From assembly GCF_013031355.1 (NCBI RefSeq), contig NZ_WPZO01000014.1, positions 1 to 64,000 of the forward strand: DNA of 64,000 nt. The letters run 5' to 3'. This document shows positions 2,291-15,235 of the stretch, in pieces (the first letter of the stretch is position 1; each line of letters begins with the position of its first letter). The notes below the pieces were generated by a model. The model did not search any database and was not told the origin of the DNA. It saw only the letters and a program-made list of their open reading frames with translations. The translations under genes were made by a program, and so were the position numbers. This DNA comes from Ruegeria arenilitoris (lineage in GTDB: Bacteria; Pseudomonadota; Alphaproteobacteria; Rhodobacterales; Rhodobacteraceae).

Positions 2291-3922
2291 ATGTCAGAAA
2301 CACTGGACCTGCATAAGTTTGAAAATCTAAGTCCTTTCCAGATAAAAGACGAACTCATAAAGCTGGCCGAGAAAGAGTCGCGCCAGATGGCCTTGCCCTA
2401 TCTGAATGCAGGGCGGGGCAATCCTAACTGGATCGCCACCAAGGCCCGCGAGGCGTTTTTTCTACTGGGCCAGTTCGCAATGACCGAAGCGCAGCGTCAT
2501 CGCAACGAACCGCAGGTTGGGTTGGCCGGGATGCCGCAGGGGCCGGGCTGCTATGATCGGCTCAAGGCGCATTGTGCGGACTCGGTTGCCAAGAACGGTC
2601 CTCCGGGCGCGGATACTCTAACCGCCGTTGTGGATTTTGCGGTTGAGAAATTTGGCTTCACGCCGGACGATTTCGTGCTGGAACTGACCGACGGCGTCGT
2701 GGGCGATCATTACCCGATGCCAGATCGCTGTATGAAGCACAACGAAGCGATCGTTCATGAATACGTGATGTGGGCGATGTGTGCGGGGCATCGGCCCGAC
2801 GCAAAGTTCGACATCTACGCGGTCGAAGGTGGCACCGCCGCGATGTGCTATATCTTCAAGGCGCTCAAGAACCAGAGACTGCTGAATGCGGGTGACACCA
2901 TCGCGCTGGGTACGCCGATCTTTACGCCTTACCTGGAAATGCCGGTGCTGGAAGATTATGGGCTGAACGTGGTGGATGTATCCTCGGAAGAGGAGGACCA
3001 TTTCCAGCTGACCGATGACGATCTGGAACAACTGGCCGACCCGAAGGTCAAAGCGCTGTTCCTGGTCAATCCGGGCAACCCGTCCTCGGTTGCGATCAGC
3101 CCCGAGGTGATGGCCCGACTGGTCGAGTTCGTCAAAACCCGGCGTCCCGACCTGATCATCCTGACCGATGATGTCTATGGTACGTTCATTCCGAACTTTC
3201 AGTCGGTGATGGGGCATCTGCCCGAGAATACGATCGGGGTTTATTCCTATTCCAAGTATTTCGGCTGCACCGGCTGGCGTCTGGGGGCCATTCTGGTGGC
3301 CGAGAACAACATCTTCGACAAGATGATCGCCGAGGCCCCGGCCGAGACCAAGGCCGTCGTGAATGCGCGGTACGAAACTCTGACCCCGGACCCGGACTCG
3401 TTCAAATTCATCGACCGGATCGTGGCCGACAGCCGCGATGTGGCGCTGAACCACACGGCGGGCCTGTCGCTGCCGCAGCAGGTGATGATGACGCTGTTTT
3501 CGCTGGTGGAACTGATGGACGAGGACAAAGCCTATCAGAAGTTCTGCTGGGGCATCCTGAAACACCGCTTTGATGAGTTGGTTGATGGGATGGGTATCGA
3601 GGTCCCCGACAACCCGCTGTTCGACCGGTATTACGGCATCATCGATTTCGAGTACTGGCTACGCAAATATGTCGGCGAAGAGGTGGTCGAGTGGATCAAG
3701 GAAAACGTCCACCCGTTGGATATTTCCTTCAAGCTGGCGCAGGACCACGGGATCGTGCTGCTGAACGGATCGGGTTTTGATGCCCCGAACTGGTCTGCGC
3801 GGGTGTCTTTCGCCAATCTTGATGACAGCGCCTATCGTCAGATCGGACGCGCGGTGCGGGCTGTGGCCATTGGCTATGTGCAGGCCTATCGCGCCTCGAA
3901 AGGCTTGCCGCTGCACGGCTGA
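2291..3922 (+). CDS. asdA: aspartate 4-decarboxylase (bifunctional aspartate aminotransferase)
   Basis: 543 residues, the usual length for AsdA. This PLP enzyme of fold type I removes the beta-carboxyl group of L-aspartate to give L-alanine and CO2, and also has some transaminase activity. Visible landmarks are NPGNPSS (260-266), the PLP-contacting LTDDVYG (291-297) and YSYSKYFGCTGWR (318-330), with K322 as the Schiff-base lysine. It is followed after 26 bases by an AspT-type exchanger. That pair is the established proton-motive aspartate/alanine cycle: aspartate enters in exchange for alanine while the cytoplasmic decarboxylation consumes a proton. A large inverted repeat encloses its ribosome-binding site. 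Confidence 0.93.
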   Translation: MSETLDLHKFENLSPFQIKDELIKLAEKESRQMALPYLNAGRGNPNWIATKAREAFFLLGQFAMTEAQRHRNEPQVGLAGMPQGPGCYDRLKAHCADSVAKNGPPGADTLTAVVDFAVEKFGFTPDDFVLELTDGVVGDHYPMPDRCMKHNEAIVHEYVMWAMCAGHRPDAKFDIYAVEGGTAAMCYIFKALKNQRLLNAGDTIALGTPIFTPYLEMPVLEDYGLNVVDVSSEEEDHFQLTDDDLEQLADPKVKALFLVNPGNPSSVAISPEVMARLVEFVKTRRPDLIILTDDVYGTFIPNFQSVMGHLPENTIGVYSYSKYFGCTGWRLGAILVAENNIFDKMIAEAPAETKAVVNARYETLTPDPDSFKFIDRIVADSRDVALNHTAGLSLPQQVMMTLFSLVELMDEDKAYQKFCWGILKHRFDELVDGMGIEVPDNPLFDRYYGIIDFEYWLRKYVGEEVVEWIKENVHPLDISFKLAQDHGIVLLNGSGFDAPNWSARVSFANLDDSAYRQIGRAVRAVAIGYVQAYRASKGLPLHG

Positions 3923-3948
3923 GGCGGAACTGCAGAGAGGCTGCTGCT

Positions 3949-5622
3949 TTGGAACTGATCGGGTCGATCTTTGGTTATCATCCTGCCCTCGCTCTGTTCT
4001 GCAGCCTCGCCCTTGGCTATGCGCTAGGCAAAATCACCGTCGGTTCGTTCACCGTTGGTTCGGTGGCGGGTTGCCTGTTGGCTGGTGTGCTGGTCGGCCA
4101 GACCGGGGTGGTGGTGTCGGATGATCTGAAACAGGCTTTCTTTCTGCTGTTCCTGTTTTCCATCGGCTACCGAACTGGACCACAGTTCTTTCGATCCCTG
4201 AATCTGCACGCTTTGCCACAGATTGTAGTCACCGCGCTGCTTTGCGTCGTGGCGCTGGTAGTCGCCCTGCTTTTGGCCCCGCTGATGGGGCTGTCAGTGG
4301 GGATTGCAGCGGGTCTTTTGGCGGGCGGTGTGACCGAAAGTGCTACGCTGGGCGTGGCCATTGACGCCTTTGCCAAAACCGGGGCGGACGAGGCGGCGCA
4401 GCAGATTTTCGATGGAGAGATCGCCACCGGTTTTGCCGTGGCCTATTTCGTTGGCGTGATCGCCACGATCTTTTTCCATACTCAACTGGCCCCCCGGTTC
4501 TATGGCCGGTCATTGAAAGCGGCCTGCGCGGAACATGAGGCCGAGCTGGATAACAACGGCGCCCCTATGGTGTCGGAACATCGAGATTTTGAGGCGCGGG
4601 CCTATCGCATCAATCCTGAATTTGCCGGCCACAGAATTTCCGAGCTTGAGGCCCGCGTGCCGGACCATGTTCGCGCCTATTTCGACCGGGTGCGGCGCGG
4701 GGAAAAGATCCTGCCGACCTCGCGCGATATGGTGCTGCAAGAGGGCGACATCGCCGCAATTGCAGGCGTGCGCTCTTATCTGATCGACCACACGGCCATG
4801 CTGGGAGAAGAGGTCGAAGACCCCGAACTTCTCGATCTTCCGGTTCAAACCAACGATATCGTCGTGACCAATAAAGAGGTGGTCAACCAAACCTTGGCCG
4901 AATTGTCGGCCCGCCCCGAGGCGCGCACTATCTATCTGCGCGGCATCATGCGCAGCGGTGAGCGGCTGCCGATCTTTCGCGGCGTGACCCTGCACAAGGG
5001 CGATGTGCTGACCGTATCGGGCACCCGCAGCCATATCGAAGATGCCGCCAATCGGTTGGGCTATCTGGATCGCGAAACCAACAAGACCGACATGGTCTTT
5101 GTGGCCTTCTTCATCCTGCTGGGTGGGCTGATCGGCATCCCCACGCTGAAGTACGGCGCGATTGAACTGGGTTTGGGCACCTCGGTAGGGGTGCTCTTGG
5201 GTGGTCTGGTGGCGGGGTGGCTGCGCTCGACCCACCGGACATTTGGTTTTGTGCCCGAGGCTACGCTGTGGATCTTCGACTCGCTGGGGCTGTGCGTGTT
5301 TGTGGCTTGTGTGGGCATCACCTCGGGACCCAGTTTTGTCACCGGGGTCATGGAAAACGGACCGACGTTGATCTTTGGTTCAATCGCCATTGTGCTTTTG
5401 GCCCACGGGACTGCGGTTTTCGTTGGCCGCAAGGTTTTTGGCATAAACGAGGGCGTTCTGGCCGGCACGTGCTGCGGGGCAGGGACGTCGGCCCCGGGTC
5501 TGGCCGCAGTGCAAGAGGCCGCGCAAAGCCAGGTTCCGACGCTGAGCTACGGCCTGGGTTACGCTGTCGGCAACGTGCTGTTGGCCTTGTGGGGTTCGGT
5601 CATCGTGATCCTGCTGATGTAG
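3949..5622 (+). CDS. aspT: aspartate:alanine antiporter AspT
   Basis: 557 residues with a TTG start placed eight bases after AGAGAGG. The architecture is that of the AAE exchanger family: an N-terminal membrane half of about five helices (1-170), a cytoplasmic stretch with two TrkA-C/RCK-C-like domains (about 205-375), and a C-terminal membrane half (about 385-557). AspT exchanges external L-aspartate for internal L-alanine, so with AsdA just upstream the pair generates a proton gradient. The gene follows asdA by 26 bases and is very likely cotranscribed. It ends one base from the stop of a convergent paralog. Confidence 0.88.
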   Translation: MELIGSIFGYHPALALFCSLALGYALGKITVGSFTVGSVAGCLLAGVLVGQTGVVVSDDLKQAFFLLFLFSIGYRTGPQFFRSLNLHALPQIVVTALLCVVALVVALLLAPLMGLSVGIAAGLLAGGVTESATLGVAIDAFAKTGADEAAQQIFDGEIATGFAVAYFVGVIATIFFHTQLAPRFYGRSLKAACAEHEAELDNNGAPMVSEHRDFEARAYRINPEFAGHRISELEARVPDHVRAYFDRVRRGEKILPTSRDMVLQEGDIAAIAGVRSYLIDHTAMLGEEVEDPELLDLPVQTNDIVVTNKEVVNQTLAELSARPEARTIYLRGIMRSGERLPIFRGVTLHKGDVLTVSGTRSHIEDAANRLGYLDRETNKTDMVFVAFFILLGGLIGIPTLKYGAIELGLGTSVGVLLGGLVAGWLRSTHRTFGFVPEATLWIFDSLGLCVFVACVGITSGPSFVTGVMENGPTLIFGSIAIVLLAHGTAVFVGRKVFGINEGVLAGTCCGAGTSAPGLAAVQEAAQSQVPTLSYGLGYAVGNVLLALWGSVIVILLM

Positions 5623-5623
5623 C

Positions 5624-7324
5624 CTAGGGCACAAACGCTACGACCAGCGGCCCCCACAAAGTCAGGAAGATGTTCGCCACCGCATAGGTCATTGTGAAGG
5701 CAGGCGTCGGGGTCGCGTTTCCGGTCTTTTCCAGCAGCGTCGCAAAACCCGGATTGCCCGAGCGTGACCCGGTCACCACCGCGCAGGCCTCGACCGGGTT
5801 TTTGATGCGCAGCACGAAATAGTTGATCGGGAACTGAACGATCATCGGCATCAGAGTGACGACCACGCCCAGCAGCAACAGGGTAATGCCGTATTCCTGA
5901 ATCGCCTCGAGCGCGGGCTTGCCTGCATTCAGACCGACGACCCCGACGAACACCGCAAGGCCAAAGCTCTGCAGGAAATTCGCGGCACCCCGGTTGATCC
6001 CACCGATCTTAGGCCTCCGGATACGCAGGTATCCGATGATCAGTCCGGTCACGAGACAACCAAGGCCCGACCCCAGCGCCACTTTCGTACCCGCGATGAC
6101 AAAGCTGATCTCGCCGATCAGATAGCCGACGGCCACACCGATCCCCAGCGCGATGAAATTCGTGACCGAGGCTGCGGGCGGCACATAGCCTGCCACTTTC
6201 GACACCCGGTTCAGATCGTCTTTGTGGCCGACGATTGAAACCTCGTCGCCTGCGTGGATTTCAGTGTTGTGCAGGACGGGCACGTCATGGCCCATGCGGG
6301 TGATCTTCGAGATATGAACCCCGCGCCGCTGATCCGCTGTCAGTGCCTCGCGCAGTTGCGACAGGGTCTTGCCCGCCAGCTTGCGGTTGGTGATGACGAT
6401 ATTGCGGCGTTCTTCCACAACGGTCAGCTCAGGCGGGTATTCTCCGATCTCGCCACTTGCGGTGCCCTCGAACTGCGTCAGGGTCGCAACGAGCGCTGAC
6501 ACGACGATGATGTCACCCGCGCTGACAACAGTTTCGGGCGTCGGGTCTACCGGGGCACCGTTTTGCAGTAGTTTTTCGACAATCAGGTCACCGTCATATC
6601 CGCCTTCGATGGCTTTCACCGTTTGGCCTGCAATCGAGGCTTCGGCGTTCACCTGATAGGCGCGGGCATCAAAGCGATTCATTGGAAGGAACTCACCTTC
6701 CTCCAGTTTGCGGCCGCCACCGCTGAGCTTTTGGGCCAGTTTGATCGCCTCCTGCCGCAGGTCGACGCGCATGATGATCGGGATGACGCTGACGGCCAGG
6801 ATCGGGCCGATCGAGCCAAAAATATAGGTGACCGAATACCCGACCGCGATGTTGGTCTTGAGCTTTTCAGCCTCATCCGCGGCTAGTCCCAGCAGGTCGA
6901 TGGCATTGCCTGCGGTGCCGATAATGGCAGATTGCGTCAGCCCTCCGGCGGCCAGACCGGCCGCCAGCCCTTTGTCCAGTCCGGCCAATCGGGCCACGAC
7001 GATAACAAAGAACAGCCCCCAAAGGGTCATCATGAACGCGGCCAGCAGCTTGGTCAGGGCGGTTCGGTTCAGGGCCGCAAAGAACTGCGGCCCGCCATTG
7101 TAGCCGACCATGAAGATGAACAGAGAGAAAAAGACGTTCTGAACATCCGTGCTCAGGTTGATGCCGCCGATCTGACCCACGAAGACCGCCACCAGCAGGG
7201 TCCCGGCGATACCGCCCAGCTCGAACTTGCCGACCCGGAACTTGCCGACGCCGTAGCCCAGGCCCAGACACAGAAACAGCGCCATGATCGGAAAGGCGCG
7301 AAGCTGTTCAGTGATCAATTCCAT
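5624..7324 (-). CDS. AspT-like aspartate:alanine exchanger, second copy
   Basis: 566 residues from the ATG at 7324, chosen because GGAGA lies about seven bases upstream and because the N-terminus (MELITEQLRAF) then lines up with that of the first copy (MELIGSIFGYH). The frame continues upstream to 7360 without such support. It has the same plan: membrane half, two TrkA-C-like domains, membrane half. It is convergent with aspT, with a single base between the two stop codons. The two proteins are clearly diverged, so a recent duplication is unlikely and the second may carry a different dicarboxylate/amino acid pair. No decarboxylase lies next to this copy on its own strand. Confidence 0.85.
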   Translation of the reverse strand: MELITEQLRAFPIMALFLCLGLGYGVGKFRVGKFELGGIAGTLLVAVFVGQIGGINLSTDVQNVFFSLFIFMVGYNGGPQFFAALNRTALTKLLAAFMMTLWGLFFVIVVARLAGLDKGLAAGLAAGGLTQSAIIGTAGNAIDLLGLAADEAEKLKTNIAVGYSVTYIFGSIGPILAVSVIPIIMRVDLRQEAIKLAQKLSGGGRKLEEGEFLPMNRFDARAYQVNAEASIAGQTVKAIEGGYDGDLIVEKLLQNGAPVDPTPETVVSAGDIIVVSALVATLTQFEGTASGEIGEYPPELTVVEERRNIVITNRKLAGKTLSQLREALTADQRRGVHISKITRMGHDVPVLHNTEIHAGDEVSIVGHKDDLNRVSKVAGYVPPAASVTNFIALGIGVAVGYLIGEISFVIAGTKVALGSGLGCLVTGLIIGYLRIRRPKIGGINRGAANFLQSFGLAVFVGVVGLNAGKPALEAIQEYGITLLLLGVVVTLMPMIVQFPINYFVLRIKNPVEACAVVTGSRSGNPGFATLLEKTGNATPTPAFTMTYAVANIFLTLWGPLVVAFVP

Positions 7325-7407
7325 CTCAAATTCTCCAGGTTTCAATTCTGGCCTTATCACCGCCTCGAAAGACGTCTCAGAACGCTGATAAATCTTGGAA
7401 ATTCAGA

Positions 7408-7616: not shown

Positions 7617-8774
7617 ATGACGATATCAGCTGTGCCGATTTTGATTTCGGGGGCACGTGCGCCAGTTGCGCTGCATCTGGCGCGATTGCTTGCCCAGGCG
7701 GGTCACCCGGTGACTTTGGTTGATCACTTGAAATATCCTGTTGCCGCCGCCAGCCGGTTGGACATCGGGTATCACCGCATCCCCACCTTCGCTGCCGAAC
7801 CCCAAGCAGCGCGGGCGGCGCTGTCAAAGATCATTTCGTCCAAAGGCATCAAAATCGTCATTCCCACCTGCGAGGAAGCACTGCATCTGGGCGCGATGTG
7901 GGCGCAGAACCGCATGAGGGCCGAGCTGTTCGCGCCAGAATTCGCCATGCTGAAACGGGTCCACAACAAATTTGCCTTTATTGAATTGTGCCGGAAAATT
8001 GGCCTCGACACCCCTGAAACTCACCTTCTGACCAGCCAAGCCGAATGCGCCGCCTACGCCGCATCTGCGCGGGATATGGTGTTCAAGCCGGTGTGGTCGC
8101 GGTTTGGGTCAAAGGTGCTGATCAGGCCTGATGCAGCGCGCCTGCGTCGGGTGAATCCTACGGTGGAGATGCCTTGGGTTGCGCAGGACTACATCTCGGG
8201 CGCGGAGCTATGCGTCTACGCCGTGGCGCGTCGGGGTCGAATTGTTGCGCTTTCAGCCTATCGCGGTTTGGTGCGTGCCGGACCGGGGGCGGCCGTTTGT
8301 TTTGAACCTGCCGATGCGCAGATTGCCCGCCCATTCGTAGAACGCTTTGTCCGCGCGACCGGATGGACCGGTCAGGTCTCGTTCGATCTGATGCATACGG
8401 AGGGCGGGCGGATCGTCCCGCTTGAATGCAATCCCCGCGCGACAAGCGGTCTGCATTTTTTCACCGAAGGGGCGGCCTTTGCACGTGCCCTCTTCATGGA
8501 TGACGCAGAGGTTAAGGCAGATGTCACCGACCCGCGGGCGGTACGGCTGGCGTTATGGCTCTACGGTCTGCCGATGACGCTGCGGCGACAGGAACAGCGT
8601 GTCTTTCGGGATGCCCTGCGCCACTCGGGCGATGTGCTGGGGTGGCCCGGCGATCCGGTTGGGTTAAGGGCGCAGCTTCGATCGGTCTCTGAGTTTGCCG
8701 GGATCGCCTTGCGGCATCGGATCCGTCTGGAAAGTGCCTCAACCTGGGGGATCGAATGGAATGGAGAGGGCTAG
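7617..8774 (+). CDS. ATP-grasp domain carboxylate-amine/thiol ligase-like protein
   Basis: 385 residues. Residues 6-100 form a Rossmann-like pre-ATP-grasp domain (ILISGARAPVALHLARLL), and about 115-290 resemble an ATP-grasp fold, with MVFKPVWSRFGSKV as the nucleotide-binding strand region and SFDLMHTEGGRIVPLECNPRATSG as the metal-binding E-x-N strand. The family couples ATP hydrolysis to ligation of a carboxylate, through acylphosphate, to an amine or thiol. It is convergent with the six-gene biosynthetic operon and shares a CTAG with it, the two stop codons overlapping. That suggests, without proving, a role in the same pathway. The substrate is unknown. Confidence 0.8.
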   Translation: MTISAVPILISGARAPVALHLARLLAQAGHPVTLVDHLKYPVAAASRLDIGYHRIPTFAAEPQAARAALSKIISSKGIKIVIPTCEEALHLGAMWAQNRMRAELFAPEFAMLKRVHNKFAFIELCRKIGLDTPETHLLTSQAECAAYAASARDMVFKPVWSRFGSKVLIRPDAARLRRVNPTVEMPWVAQDYISGAELCVYAVARRGRIVALSAYRGLVRAGPGAAVCFEPADAQIARPFVERFVRATGWTGQVSFDLMHTEGGRIVPLECNPRATSGLHFFTEGAAFARALFMDDAEVKADVTDPRAVRLALWLYGLPMTLRRQEQRVFRDALRHSGDVLGWPGDPVGLRAQLRSVSEFAGIALRHRIRLESASTWGIEWNGEG

Positions 8775-9739
8775 ATCTCCATCTCATAGTGTTGCACGCC
8801 GGGAGTCAGTGTTTGACCCGCTTCGATCAGCTCAATCTCACGCCGCAGAATGTCCAGCGGTCCGATCATGCGGGTGCTGCCGCGCCCGTTTTCTAAGGCC
8901 GACGCCAATACCCGGCGATCCTGTTCCAGCGCGACGCGAAACATCGGCTTGAAAAACAGCGCTTTGAGATGACCCAAACCATGTTGGCGCGGGGCGCTGA
9001 GCCAGCCAATGCCTTCGACCGTTTCCGCATCTGTCTGCCGAAGATGGAACGTGGTGGCCAGAACCATTCCCCGAGGTCCCCAATATTCCAGCTCGGCAAT
9101 TCCCGGACGGCGGTAGCGGCCCACGCCTTTGGTACGGGAACCGTCCAGCAAGGCGCTGACCAGGCCATGCTGGCGCTCTTCCCCGGTATAGACGGCCTCG
9201 ACCCAATCCGGGCCGCGTGTCACCTCGACCTGAACCCGGTAACGTTTGGCAGAGAGGCCGCGCAACAGGCCCTTGTGCGTGTAATGGGTATGGGTTGCAT
9301 CAAGGATGTTCTCGGCTACGTCGACTAGGGTCGAGCGCGTTGTGCTTTTGACGACCTGCGAAACGATGTCCTGCCCTTGCAGTGGATGAATAACGGGCGG
9401 GGCAGGGGGTTGCCCGCTGGACAGGAAAATCCCACCTTCTGCTTCCAGAACCCGGTAGCGCGGGACGCGGCAGCGGGGCAGGGCCTCGACTGTTCCAGGC
9501 ATGTCGACACATGTGCCATCGCCCGAAAAGCGCCAGCCGTGATAGGGGCATTCGATAGTATCACCCACCACGCGGCCGTCCGACAGCGGCACCAATCGAT
9601 GGGGGCATTGGTCGTGCAGCGCAGAGACGCCTGTTCCGTTTCGGAAAAGCGCAACGGGTTTACCGCCAAATCGCACACGGATCGGTTTGCGGCGCAGGTC
9701 ACGGGACCGGGCGACAGCGTGCCATAGGTCAGCAGTCAT
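8771..9739 (-). CDS. Rieske [2Fe-2S] non-heme iron oxygenase
   Basis: 322 residues. The N-terminal Rieske domain has C45-x-H47 (QCPHRL) and C64-x2-H67 (ECPYHGW), which bind the 2Fe-2S cluster. Residues 140-155 (VAENILDATHTHYTH) give the catalytic-domain histidines expected for the mononuclear iron of a vanillate demethylase/PaO-type monooxygenase. No reductase is encoded nearby, so it would need a shared reductase. It is the last gene of a six-gene operon, its ATG overlapping the previous stop by four bases. It probably hydroxylates, desaturates or demethylates a pathway intermediate. The substrate cannot be read from the sequence. Confidence 0.85.
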   Translation of the reverse strand: MTADLWHAVARSRDLRRKPIRVRFGGKPVALFRNGTGVSALHDQCPHRLVPLSDGRVVGDTIECPYHGWRFSGDGTCVDMPGTVEALPRCRVPRYRVLEAEGGIFLSSGQPPAPPVIHPLQGQDIVSQVVKSTTRSTLVDVAENILDATHTHYTHKGLLRGLSAKRYRVQVEVTRGPDWVEAVYTGEERQHGLVSALLDGSRTKGVGRYRRPGIAELEYWGPRGMVLATTFHLRQTDAETVEGIGWLSAPRQHGLGHLKALFFKPMFRVALEQDRRVLASALENGRGSTRMIGPLDILRREIELIEAGQTLTPGVQHYEMEI

Positions 9740-10830
9740 AGTTCGAACCTTTGCAGAAGGGGGACGCCGATGCCTGACAACACGGTTGAAATCGCGCGTA
9801 AGGCCATTCTTTGTCGTAGGGGCAGATGCCGGGCGTAGACGGCGCTGTATTCTATGGCCGGCACGGCCCCCCGATGACGTTTGAACCCCGCCGCGCCAGC
9901 GCTCATGTTGAACAGCAGACCGTTTTCCAATGCCGCTTGCTGTGCGAGCGCTGTTATCAACCGATATAGCCCATCCTTTTGCGGGCGGCTTGTGTCGTAG
10001 CCCAAAAGCGGTTGTGTCAGGGTGTGCCCGATCTGAAACCGCCCACCAAACGCCGCAAGCTCTCCGTCTTCACCGCGCAACCCCTCCAGCTCAATCAACC
10101 CGCGTTGGTGCATTTCAGCGATGAAAGTCGGAGTGTATTGCGGGTTCAGCGGGGTGTATTTTTCCAGATAAAGCAAACGATAAAGCGCGGAGCAGCGGGC
10201 ATAGTCGCGCGGCTCAAAGGCCTCGTTGGCAATCAATTCATACGGCGTTCTTCGCAGCAGTCGCCGATCGTTTTTCATGTCTTTTTGCGGCTTTGGAGCT
10301 ATGCGGCCATCAAACAGGTAGACCTGCCGTGACGGTAACAGATGGAAACCGTCGGCCCGGAAGGCACTCAGCGTAGACGCGTCCGCATAGGTATTGAGCG
10401 AGCGCAGGATGATCGCGTGGTCCGGAAATCGTGCCGTCAAGTTGTCGCGCAATGCGGCGGCTGTGGGGCGATCGATCTGCGGTGCCGGGTTGGTGGAAAA
10501 AAGCCAATTGTTCACCTGCACCGCGCGATCCAGCCCCGTGGCCCGAACGAAAGGTGATGCGGAGTGGATCAGCCCGATCAACGCCTGCCGCAACAGCGGG
10601 CGACTGACAAAGTTGCGGGTCTCTTCGATGGCATAGTTGATGTAGCCCGTCACCGGATCACAGATGTAGCAATTGCCTCGCAGCCCGCCATCGTTCACCG
10701 TCATCGGGACGCTCAGCCCGCCGATATCCAACTGCTCAACCCGTGTGGACAGGTTTGCAATCAGTGCTTCGGAACGGTGTCGGGCAAAGAGGTCGACAAA
10801 CTGCGCAACAGGGGCGGGGCTGTCCATCAT
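9736..10830 (-). CDS. GNAT/FemAB-like N-acyltransferase-fold protein
   Basis: 364 residues. It starts with an ATG whose bases overlap the TGA of the adenylating enzyme gene, and its own stop overlaps the Rieske gene start, so translation is probably coupled on both sides. The C-terminal half (about 180-340) fits a double-GNAT arrangement of the FemAB/Acetyltransf_6 kind (LLYLEKYTPLNPQYTP; then an F-N-x-S-A-G-A-A-G-F-K-R motif near 320 resembling the acceptor-binding end of such proteins). I infer transfer of an acyl or aminoacyl group to an amine. The family call is from pattern only and the donor is unknown. Confidence 0.6.
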   Translation of the reverse strand: MMDSPAPVAQFVDLFARHRSEALIANLSTRVEQLDIGGLSVPMTVNDGGLRGNCYICDPVTGYINYAIEETRNFVSRPLLRQALIGLIHSASPFVRATGLDRAVQVNNWLFSTNPAPQIDRPTAAALRDNLTARFPDHAIILRSLNTYADASTLSAFRADGFHLLPSRQVYLFDGRIAPKPQKDMKNDRRLLRRTPYELIANEAFEPRDYARCSALYRLLYLEKYTPLNPQYTPTFIAEMHQRGLIELEGLRGEDGELAAFGGRFQIGHTLTQPLLGYDTSRPQKDGLYRLITALAQQAALENGLLFNMSAGAAGFKRHRGAVPAIEYSAVYARHLPLRQRMALRAISTVLSGIGVPLLQRFEL

Positions 10831-12095
10831 GCGCCGCCATCCGGTGCAAAGCAGCGTTCGACCCGCCTGAGTTTCCGCGTCACGTTCAGCGTCAGCGGTT
10901 TGCGTGCCAATGTGACCTCTGCCCGAAGACCGCGACGCGTCAGCAGGGTTTCAAGCTGGTGTTTGGCGCGATCTGCCGCTTCTGAGGGCAAGTCCGGCAG
11001 CAGCGTCAGGACGATGTCCTGTGCGCCCGTCTGAACGATCCTGAAATCTGTAATCCGCGGGTCTGCTGTCAGCAAAGCATTACGCAGTACGTCCGGAGTG
11101 ATGAGTTGCCGCCCAGATTGGCCCAGCAGGTGAAAACAATCGTCCATGCGCCCGACCACCTCCTCCACCGCTTGCAAGGGTGACCCGCAGGGGCAGGGTT
11201 CAGGCGCAAGCCTGAGAAGGTCGTTCATCCGGTAGCGGGCAAGGATCTGCGTGTCCCTTCGGAAGGATGAAATCAATGGTGTGACAAGCCCGTCCTCCGC
11301 CGGTTCGAACTCAAAATGAATCGAGTCTTCGGCCAGATGCAGACACCCATGGCGGCAGGTCACGCCCAGCAGCCCCTCGGTGGCCATGTAGATTTGCTCC
11401 AACGGTGCCCCATAGGCTGTTTCGATCACCGGTCGGTCCACCGGATCAAGCGTTTCCGCCGCCGAGAAAACACGGGCCGGCTGCACCCGAAAACCCTGTT
11501 CTGCCATGTGGCGAAGCACTTTCGGCGGGGCGACGATCACCGAGGGGTCGAAGGCTTCCAGCGCGCCCCGCCATGTGTCCGGGCCGACCGAAAGATCGAA
11601 GAACCGCAACTGGATTTGCCGGAACTGGTTGGCGCTGTCATACAGCCCGGTTCCTTGCGGCAGGATGATCGCCACCCGCTGCCGGTGCCAAAGAAGATCG
11701 GCAATGGTTTTTGCCAGGATGGTCCCCAGCCAACGGAACCGCTCCGCGTCCGAGATGACAAAGAAACCGCGGTTTCCACTGGTTCCGGTGCTGGCACCCA
11801 CGGTGAGCGAACCGACGCGAAAATCATGCTCCATCGCGTTGCGGACTTGCTCGGCCGTCACGCCGGGCACGTTGTAGCTTGCGAAATCGGCCAAAAGCCG
11901 GGCCTTGTCCATCACAGGCAGATCCTGCAACCGGTCCGGCGCATTGGAGTAGGCGCGCACGTGTGGCACCGACTGCCTGAGCCATCGCGCAAGCGCGCGG
12001 GTCTGCAGCTGTTCGAACCGTGCGCGCGAAAGCCCCGCCTTTGAAAGGCGGCATGTCGTGACAAAGCTTATGGGTGCCTGAAACCGGGCGCTCAA
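10827..12095 (-). CDS. adenylate-forming enzyme, F390 synthetase/PaaK-like
   Basis: 422 residues, the length of phenylacetate-CoA ligase/coenzyme F390 synthetase relatives. The ATP-binding loop is STGTSGNRG at 102-110. The A5-like aromatic/Thr-Glu motif is IYMATEG, and the C-terminal hinge region is GRMDDCF. The C-terminal subdomain ends with a lysine/arginine-rich segment (NVTRKLRRVERCF) where the catalytic lysine is expected. These enzymes activate a carboxylic acid as acyl-AMP and pass it to CoA or another acceptor. It is fourth in the six-gene operon and overlaps both neighbours by four bases. Which acid is activated cannot be told. The next gene, GNAT-like, is a natural acceptor step. 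Confidence 0.78.
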   Translation of the reverse strand: MSARFQAPISFVTTCRLSKAGLSRARFEQLQTRALARWLRQSVPHVRAYSNAPDRLQDLPVMDKARLLADFASYNVPGVTAEQVRNAMEHDFRVGSLTVGASTGTSGNRGFFVISDAERFRWLGTILAKTIADLLWHRQRVAIILPQGTGLYDSANQFRQIQLRFFDLSVGPDTWRGALEAFDPSVIVAPPKVLRHMAEQGFRVQPARVFSAAETLDPVDRPVIETAYGAPLEQIYMATEGLLGVTCRHGCLHLAEDSIHFEFEPAEDGLVTPLISSFRRDTQILARYRMNDLLRLAPEPCPCGSPLQAVEEVVGRMDDCFHLLGQSGRQLITPDVLRNALLTADPRITDFRIVQTGAQDIVLTLLPDLPSEAADRAKHQLETLLTRRGLRAEVTLARKPLTLNVTRKLRRVERCFAPDGGA

Positions 12096-12916
12096 AGATA
12101 GGCCCCTTCTTCGACGTCAAAGAGAGAGGGTGCATCATCGTGGCACAGCATGACGCGGCCCCCGGAATTGCGAAACGCTTGGACATGATCGGTGCTGCGC
12201 CGCATGGCATCGTAATCGTCGGAAAGGAGGCGAGGCATCAGGCAGGGCCGCGCGGCCCGGGGCAAGGCATCGATCACCCATTGCGTATCCGTCGCGTAAA
12301 GCAGCGGTTCCTTCAATTGCGGGAACAACAGCCCGAAATGACCCGCTGCGTGGCCGGGCAGGGGTACCGACAAAACACTGCCATCCCCAAAGAGGTCATA
12401 ACCGTCCGGCAGGTGCTGAACGCCCTGGCGGGGCCTGTCTTCCACTGGCGTCAGGCGAGTGGCAAAATCATCCGGAAGCAGTTCCGCAAAAACCCCGTGC
12501 CGGATGTTCTGAAAATTCCCGTTGCGTTGAAGACTTGCCCAAGCCGCCCTGCTGCACATGAATTGCGCGTTCGGAAATTCCGACAGGCCAGAGACATGAT
12601 CGGCGTGAAAATGGGTGACAATGACCGTGGTGATATCCCGGGGGGCAAGACCAAAGCGGCTCAGGAACGGCTGCGGCTGCGCATCGTCGTTCAGCTTGGG
12701 CGCGAACGCGCGCCCATAAGCGCGCAGCCATCGGCTCCGCCCCGGTCCTTGGACGCTGTGGACGGTGTAGCCGGTATCGATCAGAACCGGCCCTGCATCA
12801 GGATGCACGAAGACCCCATAGCGCACCTTTAACCAGCGCTTCCGCCACACGCCGTTCCGCAAGATGAACCTTTCGCGTGTACTGATCCAGGCGCTGTTGG
12901 CAAAAACCGGTGTCAT
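12092..12916 (-). CDS. MBL-fold metallo-hydrolase
   Basis: 274 residues with the metallo-beta-lactamase zinc motif THFHADH at 101-107 and later D and H residues in the expected spacing (LPGHAAGHFG, then ATDTQW). Relatives include N-acyl-homoserine lactonases, glyoxalase II and polyketide-releasing thioesterases. In an operon with a ketosynthase and an acyl-activating enzyme, a role in thioester or lactone hydrolysis is reasonable but is inference. Its ATG overlaps the stop of the SDR gene and its stop overlaps the next start. No signal peptide is seen, so it acts in the cytoplasm. Confidence 0.85.
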   Translation of the reverse strand: MTPVFANSAWISTRERFILRNGVWRKRWLKVRYGVFVHPDAGPVLIDTGYTVHSVQGPGRSRWLRAYGRAFAPKLNDDAQPQPFLSRFGLAPRDITTVIVTHFHADHVSGLSEFPNAQFMCSRAAWASLQRNGNFQNIRHGVFAELLPDDFATRLTPVEDRPRQGVQHLPDGYDLFGDGSVLSVPLPGHAAGHFGLLFPQLKEPLLYATDTQWVIDALPRAARPCLMPRLLSDDYDAMRRSTDHVQAFRNSGGRVMLCHDDAPSLFDVEEGAYL

Positions 12917-13887
12917 GTCGCTTCTCCTTCTGCGAAGGTTCGCTCAAGCCCCTCGGAAAAGGATACCCTTGGTGTCCAGCCCAGTTCGTTTTGAGCGCGC
13001 GCGATATTGAGGCTTTGTTCAAACGCAAAAAGGCCCAGAGCGTATCGGGTGACCGCAGGTTCGGGTTGGCCGGGTCGCAACAGGGCGACAGCTTCGGCTG
13101 CACGGGCTGCGATCAATGCCGGTGCCAGCGGCATGTCACGCCACCGCGGTGCGATCCCGGCCCGCTTGCACACCTGTTCGACAATGTCATGGATCGGGAT
13201 CACTTCGCCCCCGGAAATATTGAAAACCCGTTGCTCAACCGAAGGCCCGGCATGAAGGGCGGCTAACACGGCCTCGACCACGTCATCCACGAAGGTCAGG
13301 TCAATCCGAGCCCGCCCGCCGCGAAACCGGGGCAGCGCGCGCGCTTTGGCAGAGCTCAGCAACCGGGGCAAAAGCGAGATGTCACCGGGCCCATAGATGC
13401 CACGCGGTCGCAAAATGATCGGGCCGACCTCTTTGGCGGCCGACACAAGGTTCTCGGCCGCAATCTTGCTTGCGGCGTACGCTGTAAACGGCCGGGGCAG
13501 AACCGCGTCTTCGCTCATGTCCAACTGATCGTTCAGAGCGAAATACACCGAGGGGCTGGAAATAAAGACGACCCGCCTGACGCCGCGTGTGCGTGCGAAC
13601 TCCAGGACGGCCTGCGTGCCTGCCACATTTGCTCTGTGAAACGCCCGGGGTGGGCCGAACGGCGCGGACAATCCGGCGCAGTGAACAATCGCTGAAACAT
13701 CATCAGGTATCCGGGCGTCGGGTGCCGGGTCGGGCAAGGACCAGCATACCGTGCGCAACCCTTGGTCCTCGAGTGCCGCAAGACGCCCGGTGTCACGCCC
13801 CTGACCAATGCCCCGCGCGTCCAACCGGCGCAGAACGGCACCGCCCAAAAAGCCGGTGGCCCCGGTGACAAGAGCGCGCCCCTCCAT
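12913..13887 (-). CDS. NAD(P)-dependent epimerase/dehydratase, extended SDR (OleD/3-beta-HSD-like)
   Basis: 324 residues of the extended short-chain dehydrogenase family. The nucleotide-binding motif TGATGFLGG is at residues 8-16 and the catalytic Y137-x3-K141 lies in FTAYAASK, preceded by the FISSPSVY serine strand. The sequence resembles 3-beta-hydroxysteroid dehydrogenase-type and OleD-type enzymes, which reduce or oxidise a beta-keto/beta-hydroxy acid. Directly downstream of a KASIII-type ketosynthase, with one base between the genes, reduction of the condensation product is the natural reading. The family is clear and the substrate is inferred. Confidence 0.85.
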   Translation of the reverse strand: MEGRALVTGATGFLGGAVLRRLDARGIGQGRDTGRLAALEDQGLRTVCWSLPDPAPDARIPDDVSAIVHCAGLSAPFGPPRAFHRANVAGTQAVLEFARTRGVRRVVFISSPSVYFALNDQLDMSEDAVLPRPFTAYAASKIAAENLVSAAKEVGPIILRPRGIYGPGDISLLPRLLSSAKARALPRFRGGRARIDLTFVDDVVEAVLAALHAGPSVEQRVFNISGGEVIPIHDIVEQVCKRAGIAPRWRDMPLAPALIAARAAEAVALLRPGQPEPAVTRYALGLFAFEQSLNIARAQNELGWTPRVSFSEGLERTFAEGEAT

Positions 13888-13888
13888 G

Positions 13889-14875
13889 TCAGATCACCAG
13901 CGCGGCGCCGCCAAAGCTGACGCCGGCGGAGGTTCCAAGCATCAGCACCCTGCTGCCCTCTGCCAACAGGCCCTTCTCTCGGGCGATATCGAGCGCAAAG
14001 GGAATGGAGGCCGCAATTTGGTTTCCATAGTCTTCGACAATGCGCACAACCCGATCCCGGTCGAAACCGGTTTGTCGGATCATGTGATCCAGCCCCGCCG
14101 GACTGGCCTGATGGGGGATCACCAGATCGACATCGGACCGGGCCCAGCCTGCCTGCTTGAGCAGGTCACCCATAAAGGTGTTGAAATGCTGCGATGTCAG
14201 CCGGAACAACTCTTTTCCGTTCATACCGAACTTGGCATTGGCGACAAACGCTTGGTGATCGGTTTCAAAATCGAACCGGGTGCCACCGGCACCGATGTGG
14301 CAGGCCTCGTAGGCCGAGGGAAAACTGCGGAGCCGAATTGCCTTTATCTCACTTGGCGCGCCGTCACCGGACGGCCCCAAAACCACCGCCGCCGCGCCGT
14401 CTCCGAAAAGGGCTGCGACCTCTGGTTGATCATCCCATGGCAGCGCGCGCGAGGCGATTTCCGACGAAATAACCAGCGCCCGCTTTGCGGCGCCGCCTTC
14501 GATCATCCGTGCCGCCGCCTCCAGCGCGCTGACAAAGCTGAGGCAAGTGCTGTTGATGTCAAAAGCTGCGGCGGTTCCATCAGTTATCCCCAATTCCCGC
14601 ATGATCAGCGGTGCGGTTGAGGGGATAGGCTGAAATGGCACGGACGACCCCGAAATCACCAGATCGATATCACCAACGGACAGTCCGGCATTTTCAAGCG
14701 CCGCAAGACCAGCGGCCTTTGCCAGATCGATCTGATCCTCATCGCGACAGACAAACCGCCGCTTCACGCCGGTAGAAGAAACGCGATCTACCAATCCCAA
14801 ATCGAAATCTATTGCGCTGCTTTGCAGTGACTGTGTCGGCAGGGACCGACCGGTTCCGAGAACGGAAACTTTCAT
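13889..14875 (-). CDS. 3-oxoacyl-ACP synthase III family ketosynthase (KASIII/OleA-like)
   Basis: 328 residues with the complete thiolase-fold Cys-His-Asn triad: C111 in DINSTCLSF, H255 in VIPHQAS and N285 in EDYGNQIAAS. Such enzymes join an acyl-CoA primer to malonyl-ACP (FabH) or to a second acyl-CoA (OleA type). This gene lies away from any fatty acid synthesis genes and heads a six-gene operon, so it is probably a dedicated ketosynthase, not the housekeeping FabH. The ATG follows AGGA by six bases. The 284-base upstream region up to the tRNA gene should hold the operon promoter. Confidence 0.85.
   Translation of the reverse strand: MKVSVLGTGRSLPTQSLQSSAIDFDLGLVDRVSSTGVKRRFVCRDEDQIDLAKAAGLAALENAGLSVGDIDLVISGSSVPFQPIPSTAPLIMRELGITDGTAAAFDINSTCLSFVSALEAAARMIEGGAAKRALVISSEIASRALPWDDQPEVAALFGDGAAAVVLGPSGDGAPSEIKAIRLRSFPSAYEACHIGAGGTRFDFETDHQAFVANAKFGMNGKELFRLTSQHFNTFMGDLLKQAGWARSDVDLVIPHQASPAGLDHMIRQTGFDRDRVVRIVEDYGNQIAASIPFALDIAREKGLLAEGSRVLMLGTSAGVSFGGAALVI

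Positions 14876-15159: not shown

Positions 15160-15235
<76 letters not shown>

Follow-up and report, generated by a model that had tools for sequence, protein, structure and literature searches.

The window analyzed here, 64,000 nucleotides of Ruegeria arenilitoris DNA (positions 1 to 64,000 of contig NZ_WPZO01000014.1, assembly GCF_013031355.1), carries a seven-gene set built on a core of four genes whose active sites are intact; in related loci, the accessory genes around this core replace one another. The core encodes a condensing enzyme of the β-ketoacyl-acyl carrier protein synthase III type (KASIII; below, KAS), an extended short-chain dehydrogenase/reductase (SDR), a hydrolase of the metallo-β-lactamase fold (MBL), and an adenylating enzyme related to F390 synthetases. 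We infer a scaffold-plus-head pathway for a polar molecule derived from fatty acids, a reading of the chemistry that we somewhat favor on balance.

Distribution of the core and exchange of its accessory genes

The first set of 97 adenylase loci (two of them duplicates) combined three sources: plasmid records, genomes of the same genus, and GTDB genomes scanned with an adenylase alignment, from which the 80 best of 560 confirmed places were used. After genomes and plasmids were added and 9 duplicates removed, the final set held 114 distinct adenylase loci. The KAS, SDR, and MBL genes lay within 9 kb of the adenylase gene in 91/97 loci of the first set and in 107/114 distinct loci, and the gene order is conserved in many relatives. 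The adenylase gene stood alone at three loci (L033, L091, and L107). Three others (L042, L058, and L088), all at contig ends, had the adenylase with ATP-grasp, GNAT, and Rieske genes and lacked one or more core genes. On a plasmid of P. amygdali (L150), the adenylase was found with a weak ATP-grasp match and none of the other core genes, and on a plasmid of Pseudomonas Leaf58 (L114) the core genes were scattered; these two arrangements speak against a universal operon.

The core was found in the alphaproteobacterial hosts Mesorhizobium, Rhizobium, Sphingomonas, and roseobacters, in Burkholderiales, E. coli, Pseudomonas, Paenibacillus, Pontibacillus, and Gracilibacillus, and also in one Fusobacterium record and one metagenome-assembled genome (MAG) of Acidobacteriota. 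The adenylase gene was present in 672 of 5,426 complete E. coli genomes, including Nissle 1917 and ATCC 25922, and 670 of the places were chromosomal. In ATCC 25922 (L157, 3200-10081), the core is accompanied by genes for a PAP2 phosphatase, a sterol-desaturase-family protein, and an acyl-CoA desaturase, and the cluster is flanked by narI and purU and adjoins two tRNA-Tyr genes. Closer to the window, presence was patchy: an adenylase match at E 0.001 was obtained in 11/101 genomes, the window's own counted. Within the genus and apart from the window's own genome, strong matches occurred only in G003, G010, G012, and G038, with a weak one in G024 (8.8e-6), and G010 and G003 carry a different version of the cluster. 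This patchiness rules out housekeeping fatty acid synthesis. An adenylase match was found in 16/394 genomes drawn from the family. In a draw spread evenly over the class, 3/385 genomes matched at E 1e-40, own genome counted, among the matches listed; this draw is a poor measure of frequency because at most four candidates scored among them. Separately, one record labelled as a Flavobacteriaceae MAG (L036) holds the window-type seven-gene set with a 66% identical adenylase, which reflects either cross-phylum transfer or mis-binning.

Next to the core, each locus carried at most one of five accessory modules, with presence scored as a tblastn match of 50 bits or more within 9 kb, a rule by which weak or new modules may be missed. 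Among the 107 core loci, 67 had an ATP-grasp gene, 11 a DUF3419 (BtaA-like) gene, 9 a sulfotransferase gene, 8 a glycosyltransferase gene, and 2 a combination of PAP2, fatty acid hydroxylase, and desaturase genes; no module was recognized in 10. Two modules never occurred at one locus (0/107). The swap pattern was first seen before 19 of the 114 loci (18 of them with the core) were added; these later loci showed ATP-grasp in 7 (one of them L150), DUF3419 in 4, sulfotransferase in 3, glycosyltransferase in 1, none in 4, and two modules in 0. Three loci first scored as module-less (L085, L112, and L142) have EryCIII-like glycosyltransferase genes nearby, and L112 also has a GT21/HpnI-like one. 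The DUF3419 proteins exceeded the PF11899 cut-off in 3/3 scanned. A protein with this domain is treated as a putative betaine lipid synthase in the available text of PMC10685587.

On a tree of the adenylases from 105 of the 107 core loci (L149 and L159 were dropped for short adenylase stretches), the module labels required 21 changes. Well-supported branches forced a minimum of 7 changes for DUF3419 and of 2 each for sulfotransferase and glycosyltransferase. For the paired test, L085, L112, and L142 were relabelled as glycosyltransferase loci, and L065 was excluded for a bad stretch and a long branch. With 10 independent well-supported pairs, another module stood where ATP-grasp was absent in a mean of 5.8, and the reverse occurred in 0.0 (median p 0.031, range 0.016-0.25). 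Single loci illustrate the exchange. L146 has a DUF3419 gene inside the sulfotransferase clade, and in L072 a DUF3419 gene lies between the Rieske and MBL genes, the position of the GNAT and ATP-grasp genes in sister loci, with a second DUF3419 gene and a GNAT gene beyond the adenylase.

The GNAT and Rieske genes follow the module type. The GNAT gene was present in 61/67 ATP-grasp loci, 6/11 DUF3419 loci, and 0/29 other core loci, and the Rieske gene in 54/67, 3/11, and 0/29, respectively; 37/107 core loci had neither. In the tree-aware pairs, presence of an amine-bringing module and of GNAT changed in the same direction in 6.1 and in the opposite direction in 0.0. This confinement to the modules expected to supply an amine points to that amine as the substrate of the GNAT protein.

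The operon in the window and its genomic setting

The coordinates of the open reading frames were checked, and the six minus-strand genes that had been described as a coupled operon were all present: KAS (13889-14875), SDR (12913-13887), MBL (12092-12916), the adenylase (10827-12095), the GNAT protein (9736-10830), and the Rieske oxygenase (8771-9739). They form one unit, which now extends to seven genes around the four-gene core. The seventh, overlooked in the original prediction, is the ATP-grasp gene (7617-8774) on the plus strand, convergent to the operon; its end and that of the Rieske gene share the bases CTAG (8771-8774), and in two Bacilli records the ATP-grasp gene sits inside the operon. 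Tail-to-tail overlap recurs, with 4 to 19 bases shared in 18/33 convergent Rieske/ATP-grasp pairs and likewise in 10/11 convergent Rieske/adenylase pairs (pairs at most 400 bases apart in both counts).

The close junctions were borne out, with a gap of 1 base between KAS and SDR and overlaps of 4 bases at the other four. The adenylase/GNAT junction reads ATGA, but this sequence does not recur throughout as had been stated: the MBL/adenylase overlap is TTGA, the adenylase having TTG as its start codon. Among relatives, the SDR/MBL junction was a 4-base overlap in 73/103 and the KAS/SDR spacing fell between -11 and +14 bases in 96/97, with gene starts chosen by script and pairs more than 400 bases apart excluded. 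The tight packing is not due to chance, because these two spacings recur; those of MBL/adenylase (-23 to 362) and GNAT/Rieske (-4 to 56) were more variable. No minus-strand sigma-70 promoter site was found ahead of KAS, and the open reading frames of at least 45 amino acids between KAS and the next conserved gene were, judged by eye, unlike a carrier protein. The seven genes include no polyketide synthase (PKS) or β-ketoacyl supplier and no transporter or β-oxidation gene.

The KAS gene starts 0.3 kb from a tRNA-Ala(GGC) gene (15160-15235, minus strand, called by ARAGORN) that marks the edge between conserved backbone and the variable region of the operon. From about 15154 rightwards, the window is about 80 to 84% identical to three same-genus genomes in long matches, and the similarity to all three stops at this tRNA, about 15154. 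Because homology ends at the tRNA in 3/3 genomes, the operon lies in variable DNA, and the edge is likely an insertion hotspot. The only match to the tRNA end in the window was the tRNA itself, so no duplicated end was found there as an integration mark. Beyond the tRNA, the same-genus genomes also differ from each other in the one pair compared. Elsewhere in the window (2291-7360), a 543-amino-acid aminotransferase-fold protein, presumably aspartate 4-decarboxylase-like, adjoins two Asp-Al_Ex exchangers on opposite strands; paired adjacent Asp-Al_Ex exchangers also occur in G011 and G022.

Active sites and folds of the enzymes

Residue counts were taken from alignments of relatives from which sequences shorter than 75% of the window protein were excluded. 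KAS (328 amino acids; PF08541 and PF08545) has the triad C111/H255/N285, and this FabH-type Cys-His-Asn triad was intact in 105/105. Its nearest solved structures were MxnB (4v2p, 318 bits) and CorB (4yuc, 306 bits), then FabH proteins with up to 263 bits; the match to the FabH model TIGR00747 reached 192.9 bits, below the cut-off of 292.1. The original prediction had placed this enzyme among the KASIII/OleA-type enzymes, and a likeness to OleA was not supported in the defining residue. OleA has a Glu at position 117 before a conserved Pro, by which we placed the corresponding column in KAS. The Glu was absent in 105/105 proteins, which had Ile (65) or Leu (40), in every case followed by Pro. 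Because of this replacement, KAS cannot be filed as OleA. The Glu-Pro hallmark is held by all but two OleA proteins in the available text of PMC7064751, and that of PMC4578411 also describes the catalytic Glu of OleA and reports that MxnB and CorB lack it and have Val at that site.

SDR (324 amino acids; PF01370) has the motif Y137xxxK141, of which the Tyr and Lys were kept in 104/104. Its best NCBIfam match was OleD (NF042422), and the score of 173 bits was far under the cut-off of 580. The same model gave weak matches in 14/14 control genomes, and the next SDR in the window's own genome scored 76 bits; a designation as OleD-like was thus not upheld. MBL (274 amino acids; PF00753) has a complete two-metal site, with the ligands HxHxDH, H189, D210, and H259 kept in 109/109, and its nearest solved structures were N-acylhomoserine lactonases.

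The adenylase (422 amino acids) matched TIGR02304, 'F390 synthetase-related protein', over nearly its full length with 251.8 bits against a cut-off of 251.9. To our knowledge, no reaction is assigned to this family, and its name rests on similarity. No Pfam family matched the window protein at E 0.01, and hence the AMP-binding domain PF00501 was not matched. The nearest relatives in the PDB are phenylacetate-CoA ligases (PaaK-like); K408 was kept in 112/112 and C247/C301/C303 in 109/112. Proteins under the F390 name appear in published tables, namely a 'Coenzyme F390 synthetase' mutant (IYO_RS29540) in a transposon-mutant table for Pseudomonas syringae pv. actinidiae (PMC9823363) and an F390 synthetase in a gene table comparing one P. 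aeruginosa strain with PAO1 (PMC5467263).

Among the accessory proteins, the one described as GNAT-like (364 amino acids; PF13480 below cut-off) does have a GNAT-superfamily fold, but its nearest matches are aminoacyl-tRNA-dependent transferases of the Fem/MprF kind. Its AlphaFold model (mean pLDDT 94.5) matched Sbb17/Sba18 (Z 16.9, root mean square deviation 3.5, 248 aligned), FemX (Z 16.5, root mean square deviation 3.7, 269 aligned), and MprF (Z 14.9), and among the matches listed other GNAT-fold proteins reached Z 12.5 or less. Sbb17, FemX, and MprF, according in part to their PDB titles, transfer the amino acid carried by a tRNA to either an amine or the hydroxyl of a lipid, and the fold is one of aminoacyltransferases that serve lipids, peptidoglycan, and antibiotics. 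The modeled protein folds like these FemABX/MprF transferases in its double-GNAT architecture and may use aminoacyl-tRNA. The likeness to MprF, FemABX, and Sbb17 covers most of its length (Z 16.9 to about 13), whereas the sequence is just 8 to 15% identical and the membrane part of MprF is lacking.

The Rieske non-heme iron oxygenase (322 amino acids; PF00355) has DdmC and SxtDIOX/SxtT as its nearest solved structures. The cluster motif CxH-x16-CxxH (C45/H47/C64/H67) was kept in 59/59 and N144, D147, H150, H155, D274, and D296 in at least 90% of the 59. The ligands of the mononuclear iron, two His and one Asp as in DdmC, may be among these residues. The ATP-grasp ligase (385 amino acids) matched PF02655 with 31.5 bits (cut-off 23.2) and is PRK06849-like, below that cut-off; it had no match in PHROG. 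Its AlphaFold model (pLDDT 93.4) matched GAR synthetase, PurK, PylC, amino acid ligases, carboxylate-amine ligases, and biotin carboxylases. Sequence searches for solved relatives gave one chance-level match each for the GNAT and ATP-grasp proteins and none for DUF3419.

Proposed pathway and rival explanations

In the pathway that we propose, KAS would condense a fatty acyl thioester with a malonyl or β-ketoacyl thioester, and SDR would convert the ketone to a hydroxyl. MBL may then hydrolyze a thioester or lactone, and the adenylase would activate the resulting carboxylate and couple it with an amine or alcohol. We infer both the substrates and the sequence of these core steps. Sulfotransferases and glycosyltransferases typically act on hydroxyls. 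Exchange of such enzymes on an unchanged core points to a hydroxyl on the core product, of the kind that KAS and SDR would yield, as the site of a polar head. A polar group that differs by lineage would be attached to this hydroxyl (or to the carboxyl) of the scaffold. In the window, the ATP-grasp ligase would add an amino acid; elsewhere, the group would be 3-amino-3-carboxypropyl (DUF3419), a sulfate, or a sugar. Where the head bears an amine, this amine may receive an aminoacyl (or acyl) group from the Fem/MprF-like protein, after which the Rieske oxygenase, present in many loci, may hydroxylate the product. The resemblance of the DUF3419 proteins is to BtaA, the aminocarboxypropyl transferase of betaine lipids, and they replace ATP-grasp in 11 core loci. 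The window's genome also has a separate, stronger DUF3419 gene (BtaA-like, 337 bits) away from the core cluster, at positions 18512-19636 of contig C3 in G000.

Several points weigh against this pathway. The data do not fix the KAS substrate, the partner of the ligation, or the function of MBL, and the modeled ATP-grasp protein resembles ligases as well as PurK and biotin carboxylases, so that its substrate is not fixed by the fold. Seven core loci had no recognized module after relabelling; they may have no head at all or one that escaped recognition. The PAP2/hydroxylase/desaturase loci (2/107) show no obvious head transferase. The tree-aware tests comprise about 10 independent pairs with p values of up to 0.25, the accessory queries were drawn from the same loci in which the swap pattern was first seen, and sampling was skewed to relatives of the window, with many Mesorhizobium.

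The original prediction had an acid condensed and reduced, activated by the adenylase, placed on an amine by GNAT, and oxidized. Condensation and reduction followed by joining and oxidation are still plausible, PaaK/F390-like adenylases activate acids, and both a GNAT-superfamily fold and an intact Rieske cluster site are present. A single fixed N-acyl amide is nevertheless unlikely, as the 37/107 core loci with neither GNAT nor Rieske do not fit it, the aminoacyl-tRNA-dependent transferases are closer in fold to the GNAT protein than the other listed GNAT-fold proteins are, the ATP-grasp gene is left unaccounted for, and the comparative pattern points to an exchangeable polar head. An Ole-type pathway in disguise, in which KAS, SDR, and the adenylase act as OleA, OleD, and OleC toward a β-lactone or olefin with the metallo-hydrolase in place of OleB, would draw on the same enzyme classes. 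In the Ole pathway (OleA-D; olefins and β-lactones), a KASIII-superfamily enzyme, an OleD-like SDR, and an adenylate-forming enzyme likewise share one operon; OleD is the best NCBIfam match of the SDR (173 bits against 76 for the next SDR of the genome), and MBL resembles lactonases. OleC carries PF00501 and OleB is a β-lactone decarboxylase of the α/β-hydrolase fold, whereas here the adenylase is of the F390/PaaK type with no PF00501 match in Pfam at E 0.01, none of the seven genes encodes an α/β-hydrolase of the OleB type, the hydrolase has the MBL fold, and enzymes for a head group are added. In addition, the Glu-Pro hallmark is Ile/Leu-Pro in 105/105 KAS, the OleA structure 3s23 scored 113 bits with KAS against 318 for MxnB, the SDR stayed at 173 of the 580 bits required for OleD, and a hydrocarbon is ill-suited to polar-head enzymes. 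We regard such a pathway as improbable, and standard Ole hydrocarbon synthesis was rejected, none of the marks of OleA, OleD, OleC, and OleB being found.

We give about the same small weight to an α-pyrone or related two-chain signal, for which KAS would act like MxnB or CorB and the remaining enzymes would tailor or degrade the product. These stand-alone ketosynthases of myxopyronin and corallopyronin synthesis are the closest solved relatives of KAS and share its Cys-His-Asn triad without a Glu base, with Val at that site according to the available text of PMC4578411. Unlike in their systems, there is no modular PKS in the operon set, and SDR, MBL, and the adenylase come after KAS. A pyrone would need neither a reductase of the β-ketone nor an adenylase, no PKS or β-ketoacyl supplier is among the seven genes, and the FabH score was only moderately lower. 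Least probable of all is a catabolic or signal-quenching operon with a lactonase, a Rieske oxygenase, and a CoA-ligase-like enzyme. MBL is nearest to the N-acylhomoserine lactonases and Rieske enzymes are common in catabolism, but a conserved KAS with exchangeable transferases looks biosynthetic, and neither a transporter nor a β-oxidation gene is among the seven.

No characterized pathway with this gene set was found in the literature searched, which had few subscription journals. It is possible, at lower confidence than the pathway itself, that bacteria with this core make polar lipids or lipid-like signals of a class not yet described. The four-enzyme core, which ranges from Bacilli to E. 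coli (the latter with another accessory set), would then have remained unchanged in evolution while the polar head was repeatedly exchanged among aminoacyl, homoserine ether, sulfate, and sugar groups. A core of such wide range with no assigned product in the literature searched would predict a family of amphiphiles, some of them in well-studied E. coli strains. From the swap pattern, strains with different modules should share a backbone and differ in their heads. The Fem/MprF-like protein further hints at a second kind of lipid, in addition to phosphatidylglycerol, that may draw on aminoacyl-tRNA.

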